NCBI RefSeq assembly: GCF_000485595.1
Contig: NW_014577296.1
Location: forward strand, 247,619 to 303,426
Reading direction: 5' to 3'
Source: Priapulus caudatus
Lineage: Eukaryota > Priapulida > Priapulimorpha > Priapulimorphida > Priapulidae
Length of the DNA: 55,808 nucleotides
The notes below the pieces were generated by a model that saw nothing but the letters and a program-made list of their open reading frames with translations, was not told the DNA's origin and searched no databases. Of the stretch, positions 3,401 through 54,201 are shown piece after piece. Position 1 is the first letter of the stretch. Every line of letters starts with the position of its first letter. The translations under genes and the position numbers were made by a program.

Positions 3401-3808
3401 TGAAGTAATACATACACAGGGATAGAAATAAACTTTTTAAGTAGGGAGTCCAACGGACCCCCTACCCTCATAAAGAGAGAGTCCGCAGCAAAATGAAGGA
3501 GTCAGTGTGAAGTTCAAAACTAAAGATATTAACAATAACGCGTTGGACATTGCAGGACATTTGCGGTGCACGTCTGCTAAATTTTCTTGGGGACATTTGC
3601 TGGAAAAATACGATAATTCCGCGAGGCCATGCTGTGGAACGAACTAGTTAGTGCATATAGCAGAATTTTCAGGGAGTCACGCGGACTCCTGCATATGTCA
3701 AATCAAGGAGTCCGAAAATAAATTAGGGAGTATTTGACTCCGGACTCCCGTTAGTTTCGCACCCTGCATATATATACAGGTAAATACGATTGAAGTAATA
3801 CATACAGG

Positions 3809-3853
3809 CAAGAGCGCATTAAGAAGGATTAGTACCTTCTTAATACGCTCTTG
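3809..3853. mobile_element. Tiny palindromic element, copy 1 (7-bp duplication ATACAGG)
   Basis: 19-bp arms (3809-3827 and 3835-3853, one mismatch) around a 7-nt loop, with ends CAAGAGCG and CGCTCTTG. The direct repeat ATACAGG lies at 3802-3808 and 3854-3860. A sequence matching the uninterrupted site (acatacaggtaagtacg) occurs near 3384-3400, consistent with insertion and target duplication. Confidence 0.8.
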
Positions 3854-52700: not shown

Positions 52701-54201
52701 GCAGCATGGAGTTTAAATCAAAGGGCTATGACCTCTCAAGCTTTGTGTTTGAACTCGGTGAGCGTGAAAGAGAAAGCCAGGATCATTGCCCTCGTTTTCC
52801 CAATACAGCTTTATAGAATAAAAATAACTCTGGACTTTAACTGGACCGACAAAACATTTTTAGAGCCATGACCCATCACGCAATGTTCACGATACTATGG
52901 AATTTATAATCAGTGGCAGACAGGGGACATCGAATATCATGTTTAGCATGCCGGGTCTTACCACCAGCTGAGGACCGATGGCTCATATAACTGATAGCAA
53001 AAACTTGAGGAACTACCTTAACTGCATGCCGAGGAAAAATCACACAGCAATGATACCAAAATTTCCTGACTTTTTGCAGCAAACAACTTAGAAGATAAGA
53101 CAGTAGTCTGGCAGATCTCTGTAACACCGTGAGCACGTACCCTGGTATTGTTGCAGGCTTTTCCCTTCTTATAGTCTTTGTGAGCAGCTCGCTTATCCAG
53201 TTTGCTCCATATTGACTCTGCCTTCCATGACCTCACCCGCATCCTCAGGTGCAAGTAAAAGCTGGGGTCGTCTGTGAAGCCCAGCAATAAGAATGGCTCA
53301 TCGATGGCAACACAAGAGGTTATCGAGACATCTACAGGAGATGCCTAGGCAGTCAACTGACGCACATAAATTTTACACCAGAAGGAAAATAGTACAGAAA
53401 TCCCGCGTGCATCATCAGAAATTCCCACCATATGCAATTTGGCAAATAAGAGGTGTTCAAATGATTGCAAGTGAGAAATAGCATGAAGAAAATTAGCTAC
53501 ACTTGAAGTCGCACACATAAGTTTACTGTGCATACACATTTATGTGTCGCACAGTCGAAATGGCTATCAGCAATTTATATGTAAATTAAAATAGGATAGA
53601 CCAATTTAGTGTCACGTAGTGCATAATATCAAGAGCGGATAATACCTCCGGTATACCTACCGGTATTATCCGCTCTTGATAATATATGCATCTATGCTCA
53701 AAGGCAAGGTTGTTTCACTTCTCCGATTTGCATTCAAATACATTTTAATCACATGCCTGCATAATGCAAAGTTTAATGCTTTAGTCAACTCAAGCAAGGT
53801 CATTAACTCATTGCTAACCAGTGTGAAAATGTAAAGATTGCAGGTCTGGAATTACTCCGTACTAGAAATCTTCAATATATATCCACATTACAGCCGACTT
53901 CAAAATGCTAGCACCTCTACCATGAAAATGTCTCATTTAAGCAGACAATGGAGAAGAGGAAGACCCAACTAGTGAATGATTATTTGGGCAAAATATTACA
54001 AACCCAGTACTATCTAAGGAAGCAGCATGTACCTTTTGGATCCAGATGCAGAACATTGCACATCTGCTTAAAAGTGGACAAGATTGTCTTGAACGTCGGT
54101 GCCTGGACAAACTTGTCAAACAGATCTGCTCCCAGACCCTGCATTCTCACGTCGACAGCATACTGGCCACTGCCAGAACGCCGCGGCACTCGAAGTGACA
54201 T
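23963..54201 (-). CDS. Mical: MICAL, F-actin-oxidising flavoprotein monooxygenase (31 coding exons)
   Basis: MICAL proteins use FAD and NADPH to oxidise methionines of F-actin and so disassemble filaments downstream of semaphorin-plexin and Rab signals; this is family knowledge. Exons read on the minus strand: 54201-54033, 53271-53141, 51070-50976, 48478-48366, 45604-45491, 45121-45020, 44720-44583, 44311-44193, 43303-43046, 42569-42465, 42069-41947, 40843-40718, 40515-40382, 40031-39934, 39176-38984, 38685-38448, 37896-37708, 37089-36904, 36669-36486, 35842-35717, 35476-35314, 35116-34986, 34473-31919, 30780-30674, 30297-29738, 29475-29320, 28831-28692, 28556-28296, 27900-27772, 26473-26335, 24207-23963. 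All junctions are GT-AG and all phases close, giving 7,527 nt and 2,508 residues. Domain order is monooxygenase, CH, LIM, linker, bMERB. The start ATG gives a short N-terminus as in relatives. An in-frame ATG at 54285 lies above an acceptor-like site (54223-54224), so I left it out. The 5' UTR exon and promoter were not found. Confidence 0.95.
24499..25881. mobile_element. TTAA-flanked non-autonomous transposon (piggyBac- or Kolobok-like)
   Basis: TTAA at 24495-24498 and 25882-25885 flanks terminal inverted repeats AGATGCCTTCCCA (left) and AGGTGCCTTCCCA (right, inverted), 12 of 13 matching. TTAA duplication is characteristic of piggyBac and Kolobok. The interior has no transposase; it has CTCGCC/GGCGAG-rich subterminal modules on both sides (about 24560-24620 and 25625-25700), a palindrome (25110-25209) and GATA repeats. 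It sits in the last MICAL intron. Confidence 0.65.
25110..25209. repeat. Palindrome CAGGAGTG...CACTCCTG around GATA repeats
   Basis: 16-bp matching arms starting CAGGAGTGTATAATAT enclose TA-rich sequence and AGATAGATAGATAGG-type repeats. No flanking duplication. It is inside the TTAA-flanked element. Confidence 0.6.
26210..26334. repeat. G-rich array below the MICAL exon 30 donor
   Basis: In the sense strand the donor GTAGGGG is followed by tandem G-rich units with GGGAGGTAGG and GGGAGGTAAG, several of which look like donors. On the plus strand it reads CTACCTCCCGCTGTCTCCCC repeats. Confidence 0.55.
28692..30780 (-). CDS. Mical: MICAL exons 24-27: distal linker
   Basis: Exon 24 (30780-30674) encodes [16 protein letters not shown] and ends LGLG. 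Exon 25 (30297-29738) is Ser/Thr/Glu-rich and starts [15 protein letters not shown]. Exon 26 (29475-29320) is read in the frame giving [18 protein letters not shown], because only that frame closes phase 1 to phase 1; the longer open frame there is a shadow. Exon 27 (28831-28692) is Lys-rich, with [19 protein letters not shown]. No domain recognised; low complexity suggests disorder. Confidence 0.85.
31687..31876. repeat. (CT)n tract with CACCTTCCCT spacers
   Basis: CT dinucleotides broken by CACCTTCCCTCC units. In the MICAL sense strand it is (GA)n just below the exon 23 donor. Confidence 0.9.
31919..34473 (-). CDS. Mical: MICAL exon 23: giant disordered linker exon
   Basis: A single 2,555-nt exon encodes residues about 1079-1930, starting with [19 protein letters not shown] after a TTGCAG acceptor and ending STASTGQ at a GTATTG donor. 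It is acidic and Ser/Thr-rich with basic helical patches (for example [20 protein letters not shown] near the start, partly read here as [14 protein letters not shown]) and no recognised domain. Vertebrate MICAL3 also has a long linker, but I know of no family rule that places it in one exon. The 5' part (about 33.9-34.4 kb) is very GC- and CpG-rich compared with the flanking introns. The open frame continues into an intronic GA-repeat, so the raw ORF overstates the exon. Confidence 0.9.
34856..34938. repeat. (CA)n microsatellite in MICAL intron 22
   Basis: CACACA with CGCACA interruptions. Confidence 0.95.
35717..36669 (-). CDS. Mical: MICAL exons 19-20: LIM zinc-binding domain
   Basis: Residues 890-946 fit the LIM consensus exactly: C890-x2-C893-x17-H911-x2-C914-x2-C917-x2-C920-x22-C943-x2-H946, with the last zinc pair contributed by the next exon (RFYCKSH). 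The domain binds two zinc ions and mediates protein contacts such as CasL or Rab-linked partners in this family. Exon 19 starts at a NAGNAG acceptor (gcag|CAG), so isoforms differing by one Gln are expected. The intron between the two exons (36485-35843) holds a (CA)n tract, poly-A runs and a hAT-like end. Confidence 0.95.
35951..36080. mobile_element. Possible hAT-type element end
   Basis: TAGGGGTGTAACGACTAACC followed by cgcgattca and tggttcggttttcg resembles the ends of hAT non-autonomous elements in aquatic animals. No opposite end or duplication was found, so this is only a fragment. Confidence 0.35.
36379..36460. repeat. (CA)n microsatellite in MICAL intron 19
   Basis: CA dinucleotides preceded by A-rich sequence (36286-36350). 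Open frames across it are artefacts. Confidence 0.95.
36904..38685 (-). CDS. Mical: MICAL exons 16-18: charged linker between CH and LIM
   Basis: Residues about 673-877, rich in Arg, Glu, Lys and Gln, with stretches such as [10 protein letters not shown] and [18 protein letters not shown] that predict helix or coiled coil. Exon 16 carries [10 protein letters not shown] and ends LTEPL at a GTAAGC donor; exon 17 begins [16 protein letters not shown]; exon 18 ends NIPRA. I recognise no separate domain. Assignment rests on phase continuity with the CH exons upstream and the LIM exons downstream. Confidence 0.85.
38098..38462. repeat. Degenerate array resembling the MICAL exon 16 donor
   Basis: About nine degenerate units of 36-49 bp in MICAL intron 16. 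Each has, in the sense strand, a motif like GAACYGCTGGTRGGCT, near-copies of the real exon 16 end (GAACCGCTG|GTAAGCC at 38444-38456). The array starts at the splice site itself. Confidence 0.6.
38984..40515 (-). CDS. Mical: MICAL exons 13-15: calponin-homology domain
   Basis: Residues about 532-635. Visible CH hallmarks are LLGWCQ near the start, the [19 protein letters not shown] helix, then [15 protein letters not shown] and the final YLWQLYEFF helix. MICAL CH domains are single type-2 modules that assist the monooxygenase but usually do not bind actin alone (family knowledge). The upstream exon (40843-40718) supplies the linker with QVRSLYD. A longer open frame runs upstream of 40515, but only the acceptor at 40516-40517 keeps phase 0 with the previous exon. 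Confidence 0.93.
39177..39933 (-). other. MICAL intron 14
   Basis: Contains GCCGGTTCAACCCC and AAGGGCCTGTTCAA motifs repeated two or three times (39360-39730), suggesting an interspersed repeat. No exon. Confidence 0.5.
40844..41946 (-). other. MICAL intron 11, nothing identified
   Basis: AT-rich; no second-gene exon could be supported. A single donor-like CACAG|gtaaac near 41113 has no matching acceptor. Confidence 0.5.
41947..54201 (-). CDS. Mical: MICAL exons 1-11: FAD monooxygenase domain
   Basis: Residues 1-489. Exon 3 carries the dinucleotide-binding strand with GGGPCG at residues 105-110 (GxGxxG), followed by VVVVEKRD. Exon 4 has NVLHLWP and [16 protein letters not shown], which are hallmarks of the family. 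Exon 6 has GADGKRNTL (GADG at 232-235). Exon 8 has [20 protein letters not shown], the DG-type motif region. Exon 9 ends with LVGDSLLE (GD at 408-409), and exon 10 continues [13 protein letters not shown]. All residues expected for FAD binding and fold appear present, so the enzyme is predicted to be active. Exon 5 has two overlapping donors 6 nt apart (GTAAGA then GTGAGT), which would include or skip Ser-Lys. Exon 12 has a doubled AG acceptor. Confidence 0.95.
43380..43760. repeat. Degenerate minisatellite in MICAL intron 8
   Basis: Repeated variants of GTCACCTGTRATGATTGTC and GGGTGACAAGT at roughly 50-bp spacing. Highly diverged; no coding role. Confidence 0.5.
45724..45990. repeat. 49-bp minisatellite in MICAL intron 4
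   Basis: About 5.5 copies of a 49-bp unit containing GACAATACAGGTACGTGGTG and ACATCACTGACAYAGG. Copies start near 45724, 45773, 45822 and 45872. They are nearly identical, suggesting recent expansion. Confidence 0.85.

Follow-up and report, generated by a model that had tools for sequence, protein, structure and literature searches.

Tiny palindromes in the Priapulus caudatus genome as probable excision footprints of P-like transposons

Palindromes of the window and of the assembly

A stretch of 55,808 nucleotides from the priapulid Priapulus caudatus (contig NW_014577296.1; hereafter the window) contains four palindromes of 42 to 76 bp that run from CAAGAG to CTCTTG, the left end of copy 2 being CAATAG. 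The original prediction, made from the letters alone, had described them as tiny insertions flanked by exact 7-bp direct repeats. On re-checking, all four palindromes, their ends, and the 7-bp repeats on both sides of each lay where they had been claimed, every repeat being exact. Here we relate these palindromes to longer elements of the same genome and propose that they are very probably the footprints left by excision of larger P-like transposons. The members of the window set are as follows.

3379..3399, strand +: uninterrupted, local empty-site copy of the copy 1 target, identical at 20 of 21 bases to the joined flanks
3802..3808, no strand: target duplication ATACAGG, left of copy 1, exact 7 bp
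3809..3853, strand +: copy 1, 45 bp, arm of 19 nt, centre of 7 nt, arm of 19 nt; family CAAGAGCGYATTAAGAAGG
3854..3860, no strand: target duplication ATACAGG, right of copy 1, exact 7 bp
9114..9120, no strand: target duplication ATAATAC, left of copy 2, exact 7 bp
9121..9196, strand +: copy 2, 76 bp, arms of about 18 nt (left end CAATAG), centre of about 40 nt
9197..9203, no strand: target duplication ATAATAC, right of copy 2, exact 7 bp
13699..13705, no strand: target duplication ATATAAT, left of copy 3, exact 7 bp
13706..13747, strand +: copy 3, 42 bp, left arm CAAGAGCGTATAAAGAAGG, 2 additional bases in the right arm
13748..13754, no strand: target duplication ATATAAT, right of copy 3, exact 7 bp
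25108..25209, strand +: probably a decayed fifth member, 102 bp, CAGGAG...CTCCTG, without an exact 7-bp repeat
53623..53629, no strand: target duplication ATAATAT, left of copy 4, exact 7 bp
53630..53678, strand +: copy 4, 49 bp, exact 17-nt arms CAAGAGCGGATAATACC, 15-nt centre
53679..53685, no strand: target duplication ATAATAT, right of copy 4, exact 7 bp

The uninterrupted target sits 430 bp from copy 1; for copies 2, 3, and 4, no clear uninterrupted target copy was found inside the window. A comparison of the window with Rfam gave no family above its cut-off.

The genome-wide search for CAAGAG palindromes that the original prediction had proposed was carried out in one assembly of 385,217,808 bases in 2952 contigs. 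The pattern CAAGAGN{10,40}CTCTTG occurred at 2499 places, compared with 280 for the same pattern read backwards, so about one-ninth of the places are background and about 2200 exceed it in the narrow class counted.

We then examined flanking repeats in 266,026 bases, made up of the window and 24 loci (L001 to L024), in which palindromes of 26 to 100 bp with CA[AG][GT]AG ends were collected. These loci were selected from the genome-wide list as CAAGAG palindrome loci, none of them by its flanking repeat; since all were drawn from that list, the scan gives no estimate of density. Of the 39 distinct palindromic spans found, 22 were flanked by an exact repeat of 7 bp at its longest, 2 by one of 8 bp, 6 by one of 2 bp, and 9 by none; no span had an exact repeat of 3 to 6 bp or of more than 8 bp. 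The 15 spans lacking an exact 7- or 8-bp repeat, some of which are alternative spans of nested cases, differed by one mismatch in seven (7 spans), two (2 spans), or at least four (6 spans). The duplicated target is thus retained on both sides in exact form in 24 of the 39 spans and within two mismatches in 9 more. In the same bases, shifted flanks produced no match of 7 bp, and none of four permuted end motifs yielded a palindrome. The 7-bp flanking repeat is therefore not due to chance. The earlier proposal that it marks insertion by a staggered cut holds. A scan free of the CAAGAG condition, in which an exact 7-bp repeat was required, recovered the same class of palindromes and also CAGGAG...CTCCTG palindromes with 7-bp repeats.

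The two palindromes with exact 8-bp repeats are L012 8094-8130 and L019 1289-1328. Some palindromes share their flanks (L001/L002 1501-1536; L023 1887-1932, L023 8178-8225, and L024 4981-5025), which probably means that the region was copied, not that they arose independently.

The duplicated heptamer is itself palindromic, approximately RTANTAY, in the 27 elements compared, all of which have exact 7-bp repeats (25 short and 2 long). With both strands counted, position 2 was T and position 6 was A at 94%, and positions 1 and 3 were A at 70%.

Longer elements and the retained termini

Elements of 570 to 1742 bp have the same ends as the palindromes, and four of them carry exact 7-bp repeats. 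Two, L015:1124-1805 (682 bp) and L022:9307-9876 (570 bp), came from a scan that required an exact repeat. The other two lie at L046, a locus taken because two termini like those of L022 stand inverted there, and were found without a repeat being required: a 1742-bp element at 63-1804 with the repeat ATTGTAT and, nested within it, a 915-bp element of another family at 478-1392 with the repeat ATATACA. A third pair of ends at L046, of the CAGGAG type (389-1484), is without a target repeat.

The L022 terminus has at least 42 matches genome-wide, itself included, and inverted pairs of L022-like termini comprised nine of 618 to 811 bp and one of 1742 bp, both figures resting on the 40 of 151 candidates that were scored. 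Ends of the form CAAGAGN{10,22}GTATGACAC numbered 228 against 4 in the control. The inverted repeats of the longer elements extend for about 185 to 350 bp, and beyond nucleotide (nt) 19 their ends contain a related inner block, approximately RGAGT-N-TGACA, which is imperfect in some ends. Among the window copies, the genome-wide search for partners covered the family of copy 3, of which 602 exact 19-nt arms were found (0 in the control). The first 100 of these arms to be listed include 17 neighbouring pairs in opposite orientation, 9 of them 38 to 70 bp long and 8 of them 283 to 742 bp long; 66 of the 100 have no exact partner alongside. The longer elements look like miniature inverted-repeat transposable elements (MITEs), and those of a few hundred base pairs may be short non-autonomous elements with P-type ends.

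When four longer sequences were compared with all loci by blastn, the short palindromes matched only at the terminal 19 to 21 nt, and no further part of the longer elements was detected in them. This is the remnant expected after excision. The view in the original prediction that the tiny palindrome is the inserted mobile unit is probably wrong, since the palindromes hold only the outermost 19 to 21 nt of longer elements together with variable centres. That prediction had itself allowed that it would fail if these were ends of one known larger element; larger elements with the same ends do exist, which counts against a mobile unit of this size.

We measured the retained arms in the TRCATAAT subfamily, which has 186 palindromes genome-wide (0 in the control), 44 of them readable. 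In the AGAG variant, 35 of 78 arms end at nt 14 to 18, 41 at nt 19, and 2 at nt 20; the search pattern demanded arms of at least 14 nt, so that shorter arms are invisible, and a mutated arm scores as a shorter one. In the GGAG variant, which has one extra base, 2 of 10 arms end at nt 18, 2 at nt 19, and 6 at nt 20, as though the cutting distance were set from within the element. Genome-wide, both arms were kept to nt 19 at 159 places (0 in the control) and to nt 23 at none, a count that leaves room for a single arm reaching beyond the edge. The pattern searched for the copy 3 family matched 113 palindromes (0 in the control), with a modal length of 38 bp, or twice 19, in 13 of the 50 palindromes listed. 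The retained termini therefore have a fixed maximum length (19 nt, or 20 nt in the small variant set) and come from a longer element.

The centres vary. The 44 readable places carry 38 distinct sequences; 12 joins are blunt, 8 of them exactly 19+19, 1 has a one-base overlap, and 31 contain 1 to 23 extra bases. On average, the 20 inserts of at least 6 nt resemble the arms more closely than shuffled inserts do, with a mean longest match of 5.85 compared with 4.26 for shuffles. The centres thus look like repair, with the variable joins typical of end joining. The earlier description of the layout as two inverted termini back to back, unlike ordinary MITEs, holds: at these places of one subfamily we found no homogeneous internal sequence amplified as a unit, such as would mark a MITE.

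Excision as the probable origin

The P transposase GTP-binding domain has 37 matches in the genome. One lies in an open reading frame (ORF) of 827 aa that carries five P-transposase or THAP9 families and matches the Drosophila P transposase 6p5a at 2.8e-23. L045 (571-3312), L030, and L044 represent a P transposase gene family with copies 91 to 97% alike over parts of their length, and L044 holds a rearranged copy of the gene. At L027, a 59-bp palindrome with a one-mismatch repeat stands beside a P match. Apparent motifs and homologies near P genes were rejected, as they turned out to be coding sequence or, on reading by eye, a THAP exon. A trait of the P superfamily, the duplication of 7 or 8 bp at a palindromic target, is present in our elements. 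We suggest a P-superfamily origin for the parent elements; the reading of the palindromes as footprints is independent of the superfamily.

The Drosophila P element is cut with an unusually long stagger of 17 nt, one of the features that set P apart (PMC7776569). Joins recovered after excision of P{wa} in Rad51-deficient Drosophila show tails of 17 nt, repeats of 8 bp, and filler, for example TTATTATTATA, and many have lost most of one tail (PMC2895639); joins of this last kind would be invisible to the arm patterns used here. The order of parts is alike in flies and in Priapulus, namely duplication, one terminus, a blunt, overlapping, or filled centre, the other terminus, and duplication (PMC2895639). 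The dimensions differ, with 17-nt tails and an 8-bp duplication in flies and about 19 nt and 7 bp here, and the fly set comes from mutants carrying one construct, whereas ours is natural, numerous, and drawn from several families. Galileo, a Drosophila element of the P superfamily, shares 7-bp duplications (rarely 8 bp) of a palindromic target and long foldback-like inverted repeats; its target GTANTAC is close to the RTANTAY of the Priapulus elements (PMC4168063), the likeness being one of features. The P-MITEs of Anopheles gambiae are also short and non-autonomous with P-type ends, but they have 8-bp duplications, and their inverted repeats measure 27 to 31 bp in the P subfamilies (PMC1562414). 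The word footprint is absent from the text on Galileo (PMC4168063) and from that on the Anopheles P-MITEs (PMC1562414).

Given the fly-like anatomy, the edge at nt 19, and the varied centres, we read the palindromes as excision footprints, most probably of P-like elements cut about 19 nt inside each end. A cut-and-paste transposon with CAAGAG or CAGGAG ends would insert at a palindromic RTANTAY-like site and duplicate 7 bp of it. On departure, its transposase, presumably of the P superfamily, would make a widely staggered cut, at the junction on one strand and, as the arm edge suggests, about 19 nt into the element from each end on the other. The broken donor would then be left with single-stranded tails of about 19 nt, one from each inverted repeat, which end joining would seal blunt, after trimming, or with filler. 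The outcome would be two short termini back to back between 7-bp repeats. The repair pathway may be alternative end joining, probably by DNA polymerase theta.

Several observations weigh against this account. The prediction had proposed a search for a longer autonomous element with the same ends; longer elements with the same ends, duplication length, and kind of target were found, but no P transposase lay between palindrome-type ends at 20 P loci, some of which are the same gene twice, or in the 5-kb L045, with flanks of about 1.5 kb. No link between the ends and the P genes emerged from flanks, inverted repeats, end patterns, blastn, or a small weight matrix. At L013:5922-6319 (398 bp), the ends match with no exact repeat directly at them. 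Seven of the eight 19+19 joins are identical in sequence, and one join shared by 7 of 44 places could also come from a small mobile unit, though it is a plain 19+19 join. Templating of the filler is a tendency, with only 6 of 20 inserts at p <= 0.05. In the single assembly, a filled allele and a footprint allele were never observed at one site. The offset of about 19 nt and the 7-bp duplication depart from the 17 nt and 8 bp of Drosophila P.

The alternative that survives best, although it is unlikely, is a sub-case of the footprint reading and overlaps with it: the cutter may have been a non-P transposase with a 7-bp duplication and a long staggered cut. It would accommodate both the failure to find a P transposase between such ends at the inspected P loci and the departure from Drosophila P in offset and duplication. 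Superfamilies other than P are not known to leave such footprints, and P transposases are present in the genome. The long stagger is named as a distinguishing feature of P (PMC7776569), and Galileo shows that 7-bp duplications at GTANTAC and long foldback-like repeats occur within the P superfamily (PMC4168063).

We consider it very improbable that the palindromes are themselves mobile, as minimal MITEs of 30 to 76 bp inserting as units and moved in trans. Their thousands of places, the 7-bp repeats, and the commonest join shared by 7 of 44 places would suit such elements, but we set the idea aside because of the variable centres and the 19-nt edge; moreover, the inner block found beyond nt 19 in the longer elements is missing from every palindrome. 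Highly improbable in our judgment, too, is derivation by internal deletion of longer elements, for example through interrupted gap repair. Interrupted gap repair does make internally deleted, short elements, and the arms do derive from longer ones. Deletion end points would, however, be expected at many depths, whereas both arms reach nt 19 at 159 places and nt 23 at none, and the edge stands although the inverted repeats run on for about 185 to 350 bp; this edge led us to set deletion aside. Chance palindromes, which could account for the roughly 280 of 2499 places that fit the background rate, have practically no likelihood as a general explanation and were rejected on the genome-wide control counts, which are 0 for the longer patterns (TRCATAAT, the copy 3 family, and both arms to nt 19), and on the flank-repeat scan, in which repeats cluster at 7 bp and the permuted end motifs yield nothing.

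Footprints of this kind are already known from fly genetics, and the novelty is a matter of degree. What is new is an offset that we infer to be about 19 nt, compared with 17 in flies, and, within one assembly, a natural set of some 2200 footprints in excess of background. In the literature searched, neither P-type footprints occurring naturally by the thousand nor tiny palindromic elements flanked by 7-bp repeats were described, which is not proof of their absence in print; the same holds for a natural genome that combines about 2200 places above background with several families, targets of 7 bp, and an arm edge at nt 19. Tentatively, and with less than even confidence, we suggest that excisions of diverse P-like elements were here so often end-joined that footprints became about as common as residents of the same families, recording thousands of breaks with known ends; the cut, about 19 nt in, was perhaps measured from the internal block (edge at 19 or 20 according to the variant), and the cutting enzyme might belong to a branch of the P superfamily whose cleavage offset has changed. 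Numerous footprints with known starting ends would show the position of a transposase cut from sequence alone, and would reveal how double-strand breaks are mended in a non-model animal and how frequently transposons depart. Annotators can mistake such palindromes for tiny mobile elements of a new class, and part of a family's past activity is overlooked when its resident copies are counted.

Neighbouring features of the window

Five ORFs of the window were tested for domains, and four had no domain match. The fifth, at 42890-43690 on the minus strand, matched a MICAL Rossmann domain (E value of 7.7e-17); MICAL is an animal gene family. Elsewhere in the window, about 18 CCCTAA telomere-type units are arrayed at 16703-16812, and a 103-bp inverted repeat at 16509-16611, with GCCGGAA on either side, lies 91 bp from this array.

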